Shown here: positions 16,154 through 24,788 of the stretch, one piece after another
How positions within the stretch are numbered: the first letter of the stretch is position 1
How the letters are laid out: each line of letters begins with the position of its first letter
From: Acidobacteriota bacterium
Lineage (GTDB): Bacteria; Acidobacteriota; Terriglobia; Terriglobales; Acidobacteriaceae
Length of the DNA: 64,000 nucleotides
Assembly: GCA_021846275.1 (NCBI GenBank)
Contig: JAJZBZ010000001.1
Coordinates: 620,001-684,000 of the forward strand
Direction: 5' to 3'
The notes under the pieces: model-generated
What the model was told of the DNA's origin: nothing
The model's input: the letters and a program-made list of their open reading frames with translations, nothing else
Database searches by the model: none
Made by a program: the position numbers and the translations under genes

Positions 16154-16537
16154 TCAATGTCCCATCGAAAACTGCGGCGCAAACTGAATCTTTTCCTGCG
16201 GCAACAGCGAAATCGTCAACTGCCCCTGCTCGTTGTCCCGCACGTCCGGACCAGCGGCATGGATCGTCTTGTCCATCGCGCCCAGGTACTGCGCGCTGAT
16301 CGGTCCGTGGCCGTTCACCTTCAGCCGATAGTGGTAGACCGCTCCGGGCGCGAGCAGGTTGATGCCGAAACTGGCAATGGGGTAATCGACCTCAATATCG
16401 CGCACCGGCGCGCCAGTCTGGTTCACGACGGTCACATTGATCCAGAAGGAACGGTACTCCTTGCAGCCGATGGCAACCAGCGCGGCAAGGAAAGCCACCG
16501 CTGCGAGAGCAGTTCTGGCGAGTGTGTGTGCTTTCAT
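16154..16537 (-). CDS. Small predicted lipoprotein of unknown function
   Basis: 127 residues. A hydrophobic leader ends in AIGC (Cys25), a lipobox-like site, followed by KEYRSFWINVTVVNQTGAPVRDIEVDYP, which reads like a small beta-sandwich (a conserved Asn/Gln-Thr-Gly turn typical of Ig-like modules). It is probably anchored in the membrane facing the periplasm. Its ATG overlaps the last four bases of lpxD (ATGA), so the two are translated together. The function is unknown; association with the outer membrane is inferred from lpxD coupling only. Confidence 0.75.
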   Translation of the reverse strand: MKAHTLARTALAAVAFLAALVAIGCKEYRSFWINVTVVNQTGAPVRDIEVDYPIASFGINLLAPGAVYHYRLKVNGHGPISAQYLGAMDKTIHAAGPDVRDNEQGQLTISLLPQEKIQFAPQFSMGH

Positions 16538-17589
16538 TCCGCGCCTCCGTTGGAGTGGTTTGCCGGCTCCCTGTTGATCGCAGCCGCCTCCATGCGTTTT
16601 TCCAGCGCGCTCAGCCGACGAGCCAGCTCCGGCAGCCGTTGAAAAAGGCTGACCGCGCGCAGCCAGAGCCGATTGTCAAAGGCGGGCGAGCCGGAGATCA
16701 TTTTGCCGGCCGGAACGTCATGCGAAACGCCGGACTGCGCGGTCAGAATGACGCTGTCGCCGAGTTCGCAGTGGCCGGCCACGCCTGCCTGTCCGGCCAG
16801 AATGGCGCTTGAGCCTACGACGGAGGAACCAGCCAGCCCAACCTGAGCGCAGAGCATCGTGTGGCTGCCGACGCGCGATCCGTGACCCACCTGAACAAGG
16901 TTGTCGATCTTGGTGCCGTCGCCGATAACAGTGCTGCCAACGCTCGAGCGATCCACGCAGGCGTTGGCCTGTATATCCACATGGGAGCCGATGCGCACCG
17001 GGCCGGTCTGCGGGATTTTCTGCCAGCGGCCCTGCTCGTCACGAGCAAAACCAAAGCCGTCCGCTCCGACGATGACGCCGTTTTCCAGCGTCACATGGTC
17101 CCCCAGTTCACAGCTCTCGCGGACCACCGCGTGAGCGTGCGCAAAGAAGTGAGCGCCGATCTTCGCGCGGTCATAAATCACAACATGGGGCAGAATAACC
17201 GCGCCAGGGCCGATCTCGACCTCTCTGCCAATGACGGCATAGGCTCCGATGTGCGCGTCCGCGGCGATTCTGGCCGTCGAGTCGATGACAGCTGTCGGGT
17301 GAATGCCCGGAGGATAAACAGGTGGCTGGTGAAAGATCGCAAGAGCCTGAGCGAAAGCCAGGTAGGGATTGGCCAGCCGCAGCGTGGGCGTGGCCAGGGA
17401 AGGGAACTCCGGCGTGACCAGTATGGCTCCGGCCTTTGTTGTGCGAGCCAGCGCGGCGTAGCGCGGGTTGGCCAAGAAAGTCAGGTCGGTCGGAGCAGCC
17501 TCTTCCAGCCCCTGCACTCCGAGAATCTCGACGGAGCCATCGCCATCGAGAGTTGCCTTCAGCCGCTCGGCCAGTTCCGCCAGAGTCAT
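16534..17589 (-). CDS. lpxD: UDP-3-O-acylglucosamine N-acyltransferase LpxD
   Basis: 351 residues, normal for LpxD, which adds the N-linked hydroxyacyl chain in the third step of lipid A synthesis. An N-terminal uridine-binding domain (about 1-100) is followed by a left-handed beta-helix of hexapeptide repeats and a C-terminal helix. The catalytic His236 lies in IDNLVQVGHGSRVG, followed by the AQVGLAGSS motif. The start ATG at 17589 gives the standard MTLAELAERL; no strong ribosome-binding site is seen. The gene is isolated from fabZ, lpxA and lpxB, and is coupled by an ATGA overlap to a lipoprotein gene. It supports a Gram-negative outer membrane with lipid A. Confidence 0.95.
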   Translation of the reverse strand: MTLAELAERLKATLDGDGSVEILGVQGLEEAAPTDLTFLANPRYAALARTTKAGAILVTPEFPSLATPTLRLANPYLAFAQALAIFHQPPVYPPGIHPTAVIDSTARIAADAHIGAYAVIGREVEIGPGAVILPHVVIYDRAKIGAHFFAHAHAVVRESCELGDHVTLENGVIVGADGFGFARDEQGRWQKIPQTGPVRIGSHVDIQANACVDRSSVGSTVIGDGTKIDNLVQVGHGSRVGSHTMLCAQVGLAGSSVVGSSAILAGQAGVAGHCELGDSVILTAQSGVSHDVPAGKMISGSPAFDNRLWLRAVSLFQRLPELARRLSALEKRMEAAAINREPANHSNGGAE

Positions 17590-17708
17590 GCACTGATTGT
17601 AGCGGACGACGGGCGGAGCGTGGCGCGGGCGCGATGGCGGTGTCTGTGGAGGCGCAAGCTATTGCCCGGCGCGGATTTACCCTAGCCAACGGGTTTCCGT
17701 TGTGTTAA

Positions 17709-17795
17709 CGTACTCTGGTTGCCCGGTCTTTTGGGGATTTGTTCAAGTGCTTTCCATTCAGCAGTTTAATGGAACACTCCTGTCAGGAGAGTACG
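17709..17795 (+). promoter_or_regulatory. Possible leader structure before the polymerase-like gene
   Basis: CGTACTCT (17709-17716) is repeated inverted as AGAGTACG (17788-17795), just ahead of the start at 17803. Inside the second arm region lies a palindrome CTCCTGTCAGGAG (17778-17790) that holds the AGGAG ribosome-binding sequence. Pairing would hide the ribosome-binding site. Visible complementarity only. Confidence 0.3.
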
Positions 17796-17802
17796 AGCCG
17801 AG

Positions 17803-19911
17803 ATGCCTGATTTCGTCTATTTGTTGGAAAATCGCCTGAGCAACCACCAGCAGTCTGCTCTGCGAGCCGTGCGTGAGGCGGCGCGCCAGGCGCAGATGCC
17901 GGTTTTTCTTGTCGGTGACGCCGTCCGTGACCTCGTGAGCGGCAATTCCGTCCGCGAGCTGGAGGTCGTCGTCCACGGCAACACAGCCGACCTCAGGAAG
18001 ACTCTGGTGGCGCAGGGCGCAACCGCCTGGTGGGAAAATGCTTCCGCGCGGCGGCTTTCGCTGCGTTTTCCGGGCAGTGTTCTGCTGGAGATCGCCTCTG
18101 CGCGCCACGCGGATTATCCCAAATGCGGCAAGCCGGTTTACACCTGGGCATCCATCCACGAAGACCTGCGCTCGCGCGACTTCACCGTCAACGCGATGGC
18201 GATCTCGCTCAACGACGGCTCCTACGGCCTGCTGATGGACCCGCTGAACGGCATCGCCGACCTGGAACTGCGGCAGTTGCGGCTGGTTTCCAACTACGGT
18301 TTTCTGGAGGAACCCGCCCGTCTGGTGCGAGCTTCGCGGCTGCGTGTGCGGCTCGGCTTTCAGTTTGAGGAGCGGACGCAGCGCCGCTACGATAACGCCC
18401 GCGAAGAGTCGATGATCCAGTATCTCTCCGAAGAGGAGCGACGACGCGAACTGGAGCAGATTCTCCACGAGGAAGAAGCGCTGAAGGTCATCGCCGCGCA
18501 TGAGGCCGATGGCTGGATGAAGGCGCTATTCCCGGCCTGGACCGCTGCAAAGGTGGATGTGGAGAAGCTGCAGGCGCTGCATGATTTCTCGATCCAGCTG
18601 GCCGTGCAGGGCGTACATGCCGACCTGTCCACGGCTCAGGCCCATTTCCTCACGGCAAAGCTCTCCGCGAAGGATCAGGCCGCGCTGAAGGACAAGCTCC
18701 TCCGGCCAGGATTCGTCAAGGCATGGGAGGGTCTGGAGGCGAGCGCGGCGCAGCTGGCAAAAGCGATGACGGCGAAGGACAATGCACGACCCTCCGCCTG
18801 CTACAACCTGCTCACCAGTTTTGCGCCGGAGGCCGTGGTCTGGCTTGGATTCACGGCAAAGCAGGCGGCGATCAGGGAGAAATTTGATGCCTTCCTGAAG
18901 ACCTGGCCGGAGCATCGCCAGAAGCTGCCGGTGGCTATGATGGCCGAGATGCGCATCACGCCGGAGCTTCCCGAATACGGTGACCTGGTGCGGCGAATCT
19001 TCCTGCGGCTGATCGACGGGGAGTTGCAGGCCGACGAGGAGATGCGCGCGTTTCTGGAGCCGCATTCGCCGCCCGCGCCCGCTCCGCCGCCCAGTTACAA
19101 ACGCAGCCGCGCGCGCCGTGGAGCGGAGCCGCGCGTCAAGGCCCGCGTCGTCGAAGAGGACGAGGATGACTCCGAGGAAAACGTCGGCGATCTGGACGAG
19201 GACGGCGTGGAACTGGATTTCCGCATCGGTGACAGCGATGAAGGCCGCATTCTGGGCGATGAGGACGATGCCGAGGATGATGATGTCTTCGCACGCGATT
19301 CCGTGAGCGCCGACGAGACCGAGGATATGGACGACGACGAGGAAGATGAACCGAAGGCCGTCGTCGGCCGTGGCAACAAGGCTGCCAAAGGCAAAGTCGG
19401 CTCGAAGCCCGTCCCCGCCGTTGCGGCGCGGGCGGAAAAGCCAGGCACAAAATCAAAGAAGGCGACCAAAGTCGCAGCACCCGCTGCGAAACCGGCACCC
19501 AGGACTCCGACCACGACCGCTGCAAAACCAGCCTCAAAGGTTGAGGCAAAGGCGGAAAAGGCGAAGCCGACGAAAACCGCTACGGCAAAACCGGCGGTTA
19601 TGGCAAAACCTGCGAAGGTCAAAGTCTCTGTGGCGAAATCGGTGGCGTCAAAATCCGGAAAGCCGAAAACTTCGCCGACGAAGTCGGCGAAGAACGCGCC
19701 AAAAACGGCCCCGAAGGCTGCTGCGAAGCCGTCGGCGAAGAAATCAGCCGCGAAACCAGCGGCAAAACGCCCGGCAGCGAAGGCCAAACCCGCTCGCTCG
19801 GCGAAGACGGCGAAACCGGCAGCTCGGTCTGCTCCGGTGAAAAAGGCGGTGAAGGCGGGAAAACCAGTCCGCTCCGCAACAAAGCCCGTGACCAGAAAAA
19901 AGAAACGTTAA
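17803..19911 (+). CDS. CCA-adding enzyme/poly(A) polymerase-like protein with altered active site and H1-like tail
   Basis: 702 residues in three parts. Residues 1-420 follow the class-II nucleotidyltransferase plan: a head with FLVGDAVRDL (38-43 where GGAVRD is usual), RSRDFTVNAMA, DPLNGIADLE and EEPARLVRASRLRVRLGF, then helical neck/body. The metal-binding DxD of active CCA-adding enzymes is here Glu52-Leu-Glu54 (SVRELEVVVHG), so activity is doubtful. Residues about 449-515 are very acidic. Residues 516-702 are Lys/Ala/Pro-rich with AKPAAK-type repeats and end in RKKKR, like histone H1 or the tails of some bacterial DNA-binding proteins. The start ATG at 17803 follows AGGAG by 13 bases. It has its own terminator. 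It may bind tRNA or nucleic acid rather than add nucleotides. Confidence 0.85.
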   Translation: MPDFVYLLENRLSNHQQSALRAVREAARQAQMPVFLVGDAVRDLVSGNSVRELEVVVHGNTADLRKTLVAQGATAWWENASARRLSLRFPGSVLLEIASARHADYPKCGKPVYTWASIHEDLRSRDFTVNAMAISLNDGSYGLLMDPLNGIADLELRQLRLVSNYGFLEEPARLVRASRLRVRLGFQFEERTQRRYDNAREESMIQYLSEEERRRELEQILHEEEALKVIAAHEADGWMKALFPAWTAAKVDVEKLQALHDFSIQLAVQGVHADLSTAQAHFLTAKLSAKDQAALKDKLLRPGFVKAWEGLEASAAQLAKAMTAKDNARPSACYNLLTSFAPEAVVWLGFTAKQAAIREKFDAFLKTWPEHRQKLPVAMMAEMRITPELPEYGDLVRRIFLRLIDGELQADEEMRAFLEPHSPPAPAPPPSYKRSRARRGAEPRVKARVVEEDEDDSEENVGDLDEDGVELDFRIGDSDEGRILGDEDDAEDDDVFARDSVSADETEDMDDDEEDEPKAVVGRGNKAAKGKVGSKPVPAVAARAEKPGTKSKKATKVAAPAAKPAPRTPTTTAAKPASKVEAKAEKAKPTKTATAKPAVMAKPAKVKVSVAKSVASKSGKPKTSPTKSAKNAPKTAPKAAAKPSAKKSAAKPAAKRPAAKAKPARSAKTAKPAARSAPVKKAVKAGKPVRSATKPVTRKKKR

Positions 19912-21049: not shown

Positions 21050-21236
21050 GAACTTTCACTCCTGAAGGATTTGGAATTGGGTTTCTGCCGCGCCCCGGCT
21101 GCGTTCGCGGGATTCGCAGGATGGCGGCGAACGGGAGCGAACGAAGCGCCGTTGGTTTTGTACCGGATTTTCCTCACGGATCGCCCCCGGCCGGGAGTTT
21201 CGAGCGTTCGCTCAGCACCTACAATGGGTGCAGATT

Positions 21237-24200
21237 ATGGCCGAGTTCACGCATCTCCACCTCCATACGGATTACTCCCTGCTTGACGGCGCCTGCGACG
21301 TGGACAAGCTGGTCGAGCGGGTCGCCAGCATTGGCCAGAACTCCGTGGCCATGACCGACCACGGCAACATCTACGGCGCTGTCCATTTCTTTGATGCGGC
21401 AAAGAAGAAAGGCGTCAAGCCGATTCTTGGCTGCGAGCTGTATATCTGCAAAAACGAGGACCATCGTGCCGACCCGGGCGGCGACAAATATAACCACCTG
21501 CTGGTGCTGGCGCAGAACGAGGAAGGCTATCGGAACCTGATTCGCATCACCTCCGAGGCCTCGGTTCACGGCTTTTACAAGAAACCGCGCGTCAGCAAGG
21601 CTTATCTCGCGCAACACGCCGAGGGGCTGATCGGTTTCTCCGGCTGCCTGTCCGGCGAGCTGTGCGAAAAGCTCCTGGCCGGCGAATACGAGGCCGCGCG
21701 CGCGACTGCGGCGCAGTACCGCGACATCTTTGGCCGGGAAAACTTCTACCTCGAAATTCAGGATCAGGGGCTGATTCAGGAAAAGCAGATTCACAAGGAC
21801 CTCTACCGTCTGGAGCGCGAACTGGAAATTCCGCTCGTGGCCACCAATGACTCGCATTACCTCTGCGAAGATGACCACAAGCCGCACGATGTCATGCTCT
21901 GCGTCCAGACCGGTGCCAAGGTGCGGGACGCGAACCGCTTCCGTTTCGACGCCGACCAGTTCTACGTCAAGACTGCCGACGAGATGGAGCGCCTGTTCCC
22001 GGATCGGCATGACATCCTCACGCGCACCCAGGAGATCGCCGAGCGCTGCAACCTGAAGCTCAGCAAGGTGGACAATCCCTTCCCGGAGTTTGCCGTTCCG
22101 GCGGGCCACACCATCGACAGCTACTTTGAAGAGATTTGCCGCGAAGGCTATCGCAAGCGTCTCGAAACGGCCATCCGCCACTTGCAGGCGCGCGGGCAGT
22201 TGCGCTCGGCGCTCCACGAATACGAGGCGCGGCTGGAGCGCGAGATCGGCATCATCCGACAGATGAAGTATTCCGGCTATTTTCTTATCGTCTGGGACTT
22301 TATCCGATATGCGCGCGAGCACGGAATCCCCGTCGGCCCCGGTCGCGGCTCCGCCGCCGGCTCGCTCGTCGCCTACGTCATGGAGATCACCAACATCGAT
22401 CCGCTTCAGAATGCGCTGCTCTTCGAGCGATTCCTCAACCCGGAGCGCATCTCGATGCCCGACATCGACGTGGACTTCTGCATGAACCGTCGCGGCGAGG
22501 TCATCGACTACGTCACCCGCAAATATGGCCGCGAACAGGTGGCGCAGATCATCACCTTCAACACCATGGCGGCCAAGGCGGCCATCAAGGACTGCGGCCG
22601 CGCCATGGACATGCCTTACGGCGACGTGGACCGCATCGCCAAACTGATTCCGCCGACGATTGGCATCACCATCGACAAGGCGCTCGAAGAGCAGCCCGAG
22701 CTGAGCAAAGTCTACGAAAACGACGCTCAGATCCGCGAACTGATCGACACCGCGCGCAAGCTTGAGGGCCTCGTCCGCGGCTCCGGCGTGCATGCCGCCG
22801 GAGTGGTGATTGCACCGCGACCGCTCACCGAACTGGTGCCCATCGCAAAGACCAAAAACGATGAAATCGTCACCGCCTATGACATGAAGGCGGTCGAAAA
22901 AATGGGCCTGCTCAAGATGGACTTCCTCGGCCTGACCACGCTCACCGTCATCACCGACGCGCTCGAGCTGATCCGCCAGAATCGCAGCCAGCCCGTTGAA
23001 GGCGAGGCACTCGAAGACCGTACGCTGGACATCGAAACCATTCCGCTCGACGACAAGGAGACCTACGAAAAAGTCTTCCATCGCGCGCTCACCTCCGGCG
23101 TCTTCCAGTTTGAGTCCGGCGGCATGCGCGACGTGCTGCGCCGTTACAAGCCGGAGTCCATCGAAGACCTGACCGCGCTGAACGCGCTCTATCGCCCCGG
23201 CCCGATTCAGGGTGGCATGATCGACGACTTCATCGAGCGCAAGTGGGGTCGGCGCAAAGTCGAATACCTGCTGCCGGAACTTGAGAGCCTGCTCAAGGAA
23301 ACCCTCGGCGTCATCGTCTATCAGGAACAGGTCATGCAGATCGCCAACAAGCTTGCCAGCTATTCGCTCGGCGAGGCCGACCTGCTGCGCCGCGCGATGG
23401 GCAAAAAAGATCCTGCCGAAATGGCCAGCCAGCGGACGCGCTTCATGGAGGGCGCGGCAGGACTCGGACTGCCGCGCGAGCCAGCCGGTGAAATCTTCGA
23501 CCAGATGGAGAAATTCGCCGGCTACGGCTTCAACAAATCCCACTCCGCCGCCTACGCGCTGCTGGCCTATCAGACGGCGTATCTGAAGACACACTATCCC
23601 GTCGAGTTCATGGCCGCGCTGCTCACGTCGGAAATCTCCAAGCCCGAAAATGTCGTCAAGTACATTCAGGAGTGCCGCGAAATGGGCATCCGCGTCGAGC
23701 CGCCCGATGTACGCTACTCCGGCGCTCACTTCACGCCCAGCGGTGACGCCATCCGCTTCGGCCTCACCGCGATCAAAAACGTCGGCGGAAACGCGATTGA
23801 ATCCATCCTCACCGCTCGGCGCGCCCTCGAAAGCGAAGGCAAAACCTTTTCCAGCTTCTGGGATTTCTGCGAACGCATCGACCTGCGCCTGATGAACAAG
23901 CGCGTCATCGAGTCGCTCATCAAGGCCGGAGCGCTCGATTGCATGGGCAGCCGCGCGCAGTTGACCGCCGCGATTGACAAAGCCATTGAACGCGCGCAAA
24001 AGGCGCAAAAGGACGCTGCGCAGGGCCAGCACGGCCTCTTCGGCTTATTCAACGAAGACGCCGCGCCGGGCAGGGGCGCTGACGAGTTGCCGCGCGTCGC
24101 CGAGTGGGAAGAAAACCAGCGGCTGACTGCCGAAAAAGAGGTGCTCGGCTTCTTCGTCTCCGGCCATCCGCTCGACAAATACGCCGAGAAGCTGCGCAAC

Positions 24201-24788
24201 CTGAGCGGCGTCGTCAGCGTCGCCGACGCGCTGGAGATGAAGCCGCCCTCCGCGCCGCGCTGGGGCCAGCAGCGTGATCCAGCGTCGGAGATTGCCGTCG
24301 CCGGCGTCCTCGTCGGCATGCGCGCGGCCAAAAGCCGCCGCAACGACAAGATGTATGCGCAGGGCCAGATCGAGGACGCAACCGGAAAGATGGAGGTCAT
24401 CTGCTTTGCGAAGGATTATGAACGGCTTGCCGAGCAGCTCAAAACCGAAGCCCCCGTCCTGCTGCGCGGCGCGCTCATCGGCGAGGAAGACTCCGCGCCC
24501 AAGCTCGCCATCGAAGCCGTGCAGCCACTCGACGATGTCGAGATCAAGCTCCCGCGCGCCGTGCGCATCCGCGCCAGCCTGGATCGCGTGAGTGAGGAAT
24601 CCATGCAGGCGCTTCGCCAGCGCATCGACTCCGCGCCCGGGCCGGGAAAACTCATGATTCACCTGAAAAAACCGGACTTATTCGAAGTCGTTCTGGAGCC
24701 GCGCGGGGCCTCCGTCGCCGCGGATCGCGGCTGGATCGAGTCCGTCGAGGAGATTCTCGGACGCGGCTCGGTCCAGGTGCTTTCATGA
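21237..24788 (+). CDS. dnaE: DNA polymerase III alpha subunit DnaE
   Basis: 1183 residues, typical for the replicative DnaE1 type. Order: PHP domain (HLHTDYSLLDGA at the N-terminus), polymerase palm with catalytic Asp409 and Asp411 in MPDIDVDFC, fingers (GPGRGSAAGSLVAYV, LYRPGPIQGGMIDDFIERKWG, YGFNKSHSAAYALLAYQTAYLK), the helix-hairpin-helix region and a C-terminal OB-fold (VAGVLVGMRAAKSRRNDKMYAQGQIEDATGKME). The ATG at 21237 gives the standard MAEFTHLHLHT; a GTG at 21228 is possible. There is no clear ribosome-binding site. accA follows 91 bases downstream on the same strand, a pairing also known from proteobacteria. No sign of the ImuC/DnaE2 context (imuA/imuB). Confidence 0.97.
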   Translation: MAEFTHLHLHTDYSLLDGACDVDKLVERVASIGQNSVAMTDHGNIYGAVHFFDAAKKKGVKPILGCELYICKNEDHRADPGGDKYNHLLVLAQNEEGYRNLIRITSEASVHGFYKKPRVSKAYLAQHAEGLIGFSGCLSGELCEKLLAGEYEAARATAAQYRDIFGRENFYLEIQDQGLIQEKQIHKDLYRLERELEIPLVATNDSHYLCEDDHKPHDVMLCVQTGAKVRDANRFRFDADQFYVKTADEMERLFPDRHDILTRTQEIAERCNLKLSKVDNPFPEFAVPAGHTIDSYFEEICREGYRKRLETAIRHLQARGQLRSALHEYEARLEREIGIIRQMKYSGYFLIVWDFIRYAREHGIPVGPGRGSAAGSLVAYVMEITNIDPLQNALLFERFLNPERISMPDIDVDFCMNRRGEVIDYVTRKYGREQVAQIITFNTMAAKAAIKDCGRAMDMPYGDVDRIAKLIPPTIGITIDKALEEQPELSKVYENDAQIRELIDTARKLEGLVRGSGVHAAGVVIAPRPLTELVPIAKTKNDEIVTAYDMKAVEKMGLLKMDFLGLTTLTVITDALELIRQNRSQPVEGEALEDRTLDIETIPLDDKETYEKVFHRALTSGVFQFESGGMRDVLRRYKPESIEDLTALNALYRPGPIQGGMIDDFIERKWGRRKVEYLLPELESLLKETLGVIVYQEQVMQIANKLASYSLGEADLLRRAMGKKDPAEMASQRTRFMEGAAGLGLPREPAGEIFDQMEKFAGYGFNKSHSAAYALLAYQTAYLKTHYPVEFMAALLTSEISKPENVVKYIQECREMGIRVEPPDVRYSGAHFTPSGDAIRFGLTAIKNVGGNAIESILTARRALESEGKTFSSFWDFCERIDLRLMNKRVIESLIKAGALDCMGSRAQLTAAIDKAIERAQKAQKDAAQGQHGLFGLFNEDAAPGRGADELPRVAEWEENQRLTAEKEVLGFFVSGHPLDKYAEKLRNLSGVVSVADALEMKPPSAPRWGQQRDPASEIAVAGVLVGMRAAKSRRNDKMYAQGQIEDATGKMEVICFAKDYERLAEQLKTEAPVLLRGALIGEEDSAPKLAIEAVQPLDDVEIKLPRAVRIRASLDRVSEESMQALRQRIDSAPGPGKLMIHLKKPDLFEVVLEPRGASVAADRGWIESVEEILGRGSVQVLS

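Follow-up and report, generated by a model that had tools for sequence, protein, structure and literature searches.

The gene on the forward strand at positions 17803 to 19911 of the window, by which we mean the whole stretch of 64,000 nucleotides that was analysed, encodes a tailed homologue of the A-adding tRNA nucleotidyltransferases in which the catalytic DxD motif is missing. From sequence comparisons across the phylum, we lean towards the reading that it is a retired A-adding-type enzyme, which a CCA-adding partner would have released and which would now be non-catalytic. Because tRNA nucleotidyltransferases perform an essential housekeeping function, a dead member kept under selection in a group of soil bacteria would be noteworthy. 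A search of the PMC literature, a collection outside which most subscription papers lie, returned no report of a dead tRNA nucleotidyltransferase paralogue kept by selection. The parts of the gene and its two neighbours lie as follows.

16534 to 17589: lpxD, divergent from the gene.
17803 to 19911, forward strand: the whole gene, an open reading frame of 702 codons for a tailed A-adding tRNA nucleotidyltransferase homologue without the DxD motif.
17914 to 17919, forward strand: G38-D39, where GG is expected.
17956 to 17964, forward strand: E52-L-E54, the site of both metal-binding aspartates.
18103 to 18153, forward strand: loop region ahead of motif B, residues 101-117, with R101 retained and E103 of the ancestral RxE gone.
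18175 to 18192, forward strand: motif B, RDFTVN, residues 125-130, intact.
18298 to 19062, forward strand: residues 166-420, forming the neck, body and tail helices, with homology to the CCA-adding enzyme of T. maritima and the A-adding enzyme of A. aeolicus (limits approximate).
18307 to 18321, forward strand: motif D, EEPAR, residues 169-173 (ancestral EDxxR).
19153 to 19350, forward strand: acidic block, residues 451-516, 66 amino acids with 22 D and 15 E, net charge -34.
19279 to 19305, forward strand: short conserved motif DDVFARDSV inside the acidic block.
19351 to 19908, forward strand: Lys/Ala/Pro-rich tail, residues 517-702, 186 amino acids, 64% K+A+P, net charge +52.
21228 to 24788: dnaE.

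The start codon is backed by a start of the MPDY/MADY type that is common to 30 aligned relatives. A preliminary description of this DNA had proposed that the nucleotidyltransferase head keeps its fold motifs but has ExE for DxD and GD for GG. Both parts of this proposal hold: residues 35-160 match the Pfam domain PolyA_pol (PF01743) with 62.5 bits for a cut-off of 23, motif B is intact in the context SRDFTVNAMA, and the substituted positions are E52-L-E54 and G38-D39. In the T. maritima CCA-adding enzyme, Asp55 and Asp57 are catalytic, and the carboxylates of the A. aeolicus A-adding enzyme are likewise known (PMC3925840, in part). The window protein, with GD and ELE, thus lacks the GG and DxD metal site of an active class II tRNA nucleotidyltransferase. 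In the selection with a CCA-trimming exonuclease of PMC11784652, an AxA variant is inactive.

The origin as a tRNA-tail enzyme that had been suggested for the protein is borne out by profile matches, and its neck, body and tail are homologous to those of solved class II members. For a family profile built from 30 relatives, the best PDB sequence match is 3h37, the CCA-adding enzyme of T. maritima, at 208 bits over 7-416; the profile also matches 4wby, the A-adding enzyme of A. aeolicus, at 202 bits over its positions 19-385. Among NCBIfam models, the window protein scores best against the A-adding NF041569, with 105 bits over 4-260 for a cut-off of 1440, a cut-off also missed by the three long homologues from outside the class that were run against NCBIfam (597-817 bits, nearly full length). 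Pfam and NCBIfam scans found no N-terminal DHH and CBS domains in the window protein. Judged by these sequence features (the DxD motif, the DHH-CBS half and the NF041569 cut-off), it is not classed as an A-adding enzyme. An AlphaFold model of residues 1-420, made from a five-row alignment, has a mean pLDDT of 71.9 and a pTM of 0.55, with residues 101-131 below 50. Foldseek ranks the T. maritima and A. aeolicus enzymes first for this model, with query TM of 0.43-0.47, and its top match has an E-value of 1.4e-16 but a TM of 0.45 and an rmsd of 13.9. Given the modest model quality and the low TM, the model supports the assignment at fold level only.

Relatives were searched in 31 genomes, 29 of which hold the protein family, the other two (G002 and G016) showing the partner enzyme only. 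Within the window's genus the gene is present in 14 of 15 genomes. G002, which has only the partner, gives a best lpxD match of just 38% identity; G016 has lpxD without the family gene beside it. A phylum-wide search covered 297 genomes, of which 286 had some match and 11 had none, and the rows from outside the class were chosen among the matches listed. The resulting alignment of 80 family sequences comprises 14 from the genus, 2 from a sister genus, 31 other rows of the same taxonomic family, 12 from a second taxonomic family (f2), 3 from another group within the class, here called the third group (with L006 assigned to it from the tree), and 18 that lie outside the class. These last are a selection, and duplicates and partner enzymes were removed prior to counting.

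The DxD motif is kept in all 18 rows from outside the class, in all 3 of the third group and in 30 of the 31 from other genera of the same taxonomic family. It is found in none of the 14 genus members (10 ExE, 3 DxE, 1 GxE), in neither sister-genus row (both DxE) and in none of the 12 rows of family f2. The second catalytic Asp is replaced by Glu in the 14 genus carriers and in both sister-genus rows, and GD stands for GG in 12 of the 14 genus members. Family f2 has T, S, F, V, H or L at the first DxD position in 12/12 and H, N or E at the second in 4/12; its third carboxylate is Arg and its motif B Asp is Gly, both in 12/12. The comparison of DxD positions across homologues that the preliminary description had called for therefore reveals a lineage-wide change, and an isolated substitution or a sequencing error is excluded because the site is altered in all 14 carriers of the genus. 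In a tree of 71 rows, from which nine near copies were left out, the window's genus with its sister genus and family f2 form two separate supported clades of DxD loss. Hence, the canonical active site appears to have been lost across whole lineages at least twice. The DxD label requires a minimum of three changes on this tree, the third being a single ExD row (L043). This lone variant belongs to another genus of the same taxonomic family, is otherwise intact, and may mark the beginning of a third active-site loss.

The gene seems to be under purifying selection in the window's genus, with dN/dS of about 0.07, and the head appears to be constrained about as tightly as the rest. Among seven close species of the window subclade, residues 1-165 have a mean pairwise dN/dS of 0.065 and residues 166-420 one of 0.080. 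In five species of the other subclade of the genus the values are 0.077 (9 of 10 pairs usable) and 0.073, respectively. Mean dS is 1.4-1.9 (1.4-1.7 in the window subclade), near saturation, which makes these values approximate. A pseudogene is excluded, as dN/dS is low across the 12 species compared and none of the 14 copies has an internal stop.

This constraint on the head would also fit a protein that is still an enzyme, in which ExE holds the metals and A or another nucleotide is added, perhaps slowly or on a different RNA. Glu can in principle bind metal, and in the window subclade the three carboxylate positions are all acidic (E, E, then E in 7/8 or D in 1/8), R125 and D126 of motif B are kept in 8/8 and so is the Arg of motif D, which reads EExxR in 8/8, so that residual activity is conceivable. 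We nevertheless consider continued catalysis unlikely, since the genus also contains the DxE, GxE and GD variants counted above, family f2 has the first- and second-position residues already given, and in the other subclade of the genus the nucleobase Arg is replaced by L or Q in 5/6. Motif D of that subclade has Asn at the Asp position in 6/6 and has lost its Arg in 5/6. From this pattern we infer that catalytic activity was lost.

Other alterations reach further than the loss of DxD. In motif C, position 149 is Asn in 62/62 rows from within the class and Gly in at least 16 of the 18 from outside it, and 9/31 rows of the same taxonomic family retain the Glu in the Arg-x-Glu that precedes the loop. 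The carriers of DxD within the class are thus already altered in motif C, and a change of role may predate the loss of the site. On these residues, even the members with DxD may have an altered job.

The architecture of the protein family differs between the class and the rest of the phylum. Outside the class, at least about 450 residues precede the family part in 14/18 rows (the remaining ones have 350 in L073, 208 in L079, 101 in L085 and 51 in L081), and DHH, CBS and PolyA_pol domains are present in the 4/4 long homologues scanned. Within the class, 0-113 residues precede the family part in 62/62 rows, the N-terminal half being gone. L081 and L085, which have no room for the DHH-CBS half and have an intact DxD, are short homologues from outside the class and represent an independent truncation.

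The partner enzymes also differ. Those from outside the class have a spacing from motif A to motif B of 71-78 in 11/12; in the twelfth (L091) the pattern caught a false match upstream, and a second, short-spaced motif is present in its sequence. All 12 genomes with these partners also hold a stronger match to the family among the matches listed. A short loop is a hallmark of bacterial CC-adding enzymes (PMC7014341 and PMC3925840, both in part), although the loop is not always decisive for activity (PMC3925840, in part). Within the class, the spacing is 85-128 in the 35/35 genomes measured (8 and 31 rows, 4 of them overlapping). Two partners of the third group are 34-35% identical to the window's partner and have a different type of long loop. 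Loop length suggests that partners outside the class are CC-adding and those inside it CCA-adding. A canonical CCA-adding-type enzyme had been proposed as something to look for elsewhere in the window's genome, and we did find a second, HD-type enzyme with an intact site (GG and DYD), encoded on a separate contig from the window gene. A partner is present in 28/31 genomes and was not found in G014, G026 and G030 (88, 89 and 73% complete); a missing partner in these, or a missing gene in G002 and G016, is a real loss or an assembly gap. In NCBIfam, the partners L001 and L104 hit pcnB, the poly(A) polymerase model, as well as CCA models, in each case below the cut-off. From similarity and the loop, the partner within the class likely adds CCA.

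Within the class, truncation and a long-loop partner thus precede the loss of DxD. Truncation is not strictly tied to the type of partner, as L081 is short yet its genome holds the short-loop partner L091. On the preferred reading of a released and retired enzyme, the ancestral state would have been a long A-adding-like protein headed by DHH and CBS domains, with an intact site, beside a short-loop partner of the CC-adding type. In the class, the N-terminal half is gone, and the partner has a long loop, as is typical of CCA-adding enzymes. A partner able to add the whole CCA may then have freed the A-adding gene to change, and the catalytic site would have been lost at least twice, once in the window's genus with its sister genus and once in family f2, the fold meanwhile being held by purifying selection in the window's genus. 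The neck, body and tail helices may have kept their hold on tRNA, or on another structured RNA, while no longer adding nucleotides, and we infer that the protein binds RNA. Against this stands the slight acidity of residues 1-419 in the window's genus (net -4 to -15).

The encoding of CCA in tRNA genes was considered as a trigger of site loss, and it is non-discriminating, since CCA is encoded by most sampled genes whether or not the genome belongs to the class. In the window's genome, this is true of each of the 43 tRNA genes found. Elsewhere, with ten loci sampled in each of six further genomes, it is encoded by 39/43 genes outside the class (15/15, 12/13 and 12/15) and by 14/14, 11/11 and, in family f2, 10/12 inside it. 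The two exceptions in this f2 genome (G021) end in ACGG and ACAC, not NCCA, so that some addition is needed there. The G021 copy of the protein family (L026) has TxD and RGFT.

H1-like and HU-tail proteins have a Lys/Ala/Pro-rich low-complexity tail, and the C-terminus of the window protein has this character. The preliminary description had given it as an acidic block of 60-70 residues followed by about 185 Lys/Ala/Pro-rich ones, and the counts come out at 66 and 186. It had also taken the H1-like tail and the dead site as one conversion, and this does not stand. Basic tails are found on relatives with an intact DxD (L046, net +49; L061, net +52) and on most rows of family f2, so that a gain of the tail together with the catalytic loss is excluded, and the sign of the tail flips within the genus, from a net charge of +9 to +25 in the window subclade to -12 to -40 in the other subclade (6/14 genus members). 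Acid-rich tails occur in the genus, the sister genus, L041 and the DxD row L048 (net -18). The tails of L015-L019 have, in place of the Lys-rich sequence of the window subclade, a second conserved block of the type GAGLKALA..LDLEEPSDPADLDEADP. A search for a tandem-repeat origin of the tail gave no array at score 40.

The length, composition and charge of this tail, and the many relatives with basic ones, could point to a nucleoid protein that binds DNA architecturally, with the enzyme part as a passive carrier; the proximity of both lpxD and dnaE in 8/15 loci also fits. We regard this as distinctly unlikely: the tail is net negative in the 6 genus members just mentioned and has just 12-35 residues in L006, L031, L032, L033, L066 and L067, relatives with DxD carry tails too, and the strong constraint on the enzyme part speaks against a passive carrier. 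If the protein is instead a retired nucleotidyltransferase, its charged and probably disordered tail may add electrostatic contact.

Within the acidic block, DVFA preceded by acidic residues is kept in 14/14 genus members, and DDVFARxSV probably docks a protein partner in the window's genus. As a docking peptide shared with other proteins, DDVFAR was rejected, since the DDVFA[R/S/G-like] codon pattern occurs only twice in the genome, once here and once between the listed open reading frames (of at least 120 amino acids). This suggested protein contact and the partner in 28/31 genomes would also agree with a regulator of the partner, a dead paralogue that tunes repair by binding either the long-loop enzyme or the tRNA on which it acts, but we give this reading little credence, as the two genes are on different contigs in the window's genome (G000) and the three incomplete genomes yielded no partner.

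The recurrent lpxD/dnaE neighbourhood supports the orthology of the gene. Of the 15 loci examined, 11 have lpxD near the gene. In 5 of the 8 loci with both neighbours (L197, L198, L200, L206 and L207), dnaE follows directly downstream of the gene in the same orientation, less than 200 bases away as judged by open frames. A leader structure over the ribosome-binding site had been proposed as a hint of regulation; the fold has a z-score of -1.15, with 26/200 shuffles as good or better, and the predicted leader folds differ among the 17 relatives folded, so that neither line supports a regulatory leader. At about 17705-17735, in the gap between lpxD and the gene, there is a block like GTGTTAACGTACT-TGGTTGC, which is conserved in many members of the genus and to some degree in the sister genus (several rows are incomplete there). 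It is possibly a promoter or a regulator site.

These observations can be extended, tentatively, to a recurrent conversion, in which the replacement of a CC-adding and A-adding pair by one CCA-adding enzyme would turn the freed A-adding enzyme into a non-catalytic, tailed tRNA or RNA scaffold with a docking motif. That two such conversions took place within a single class of Acidobacteriota, with catalytically intact tailed intermediates still extant, is possible rather than probable. The extant intermediates (long with DHH-CBS, short with DxD, tailed with DxD and tailed without DxD) make the order of steps towards a pseudo-enzyme directly testable. Where annotation relies solely on the PolyA_pol domain, such proteins could be mislabelled as CCA enzymes.

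Among known systems, the window protein resembles H1-like and HU-tail proteins in its tail, but this tail is joined to an enzyme fold, stands behind an acidic block and varies in net sign within the genus; we do not file it as an H1-like protein. With the A-adding tRNA nucleotidyltransferase (NF041569; A. aeolicus 4wby/1vfg) it shares the best NCBIfam match and the 202-bit profile match, and it differs in having neither the DHH/CBS half nor DxD, in reaching 105 of 1440 bits and in its long charged tail. The T. maritima class II CCA-adding enzyme (3h37, 3h38, 3h39, 3h3a, 5hc9) is its best PDB match in sequence and, according to the predicted model, in fold, but the Asp55 and Asp57 of that enzyme are Glu in the window protein and its GG is GD (PMC3925840, in part). 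Finally, human OASL offers a parallel, being a protein with a Pol-beta-like nucleotidyltransferase fold that has lost catalysis and retained a role (PMC4446440, in part). It belongs to an unrelated branch, however, and binds dsRNA in innate immunity.
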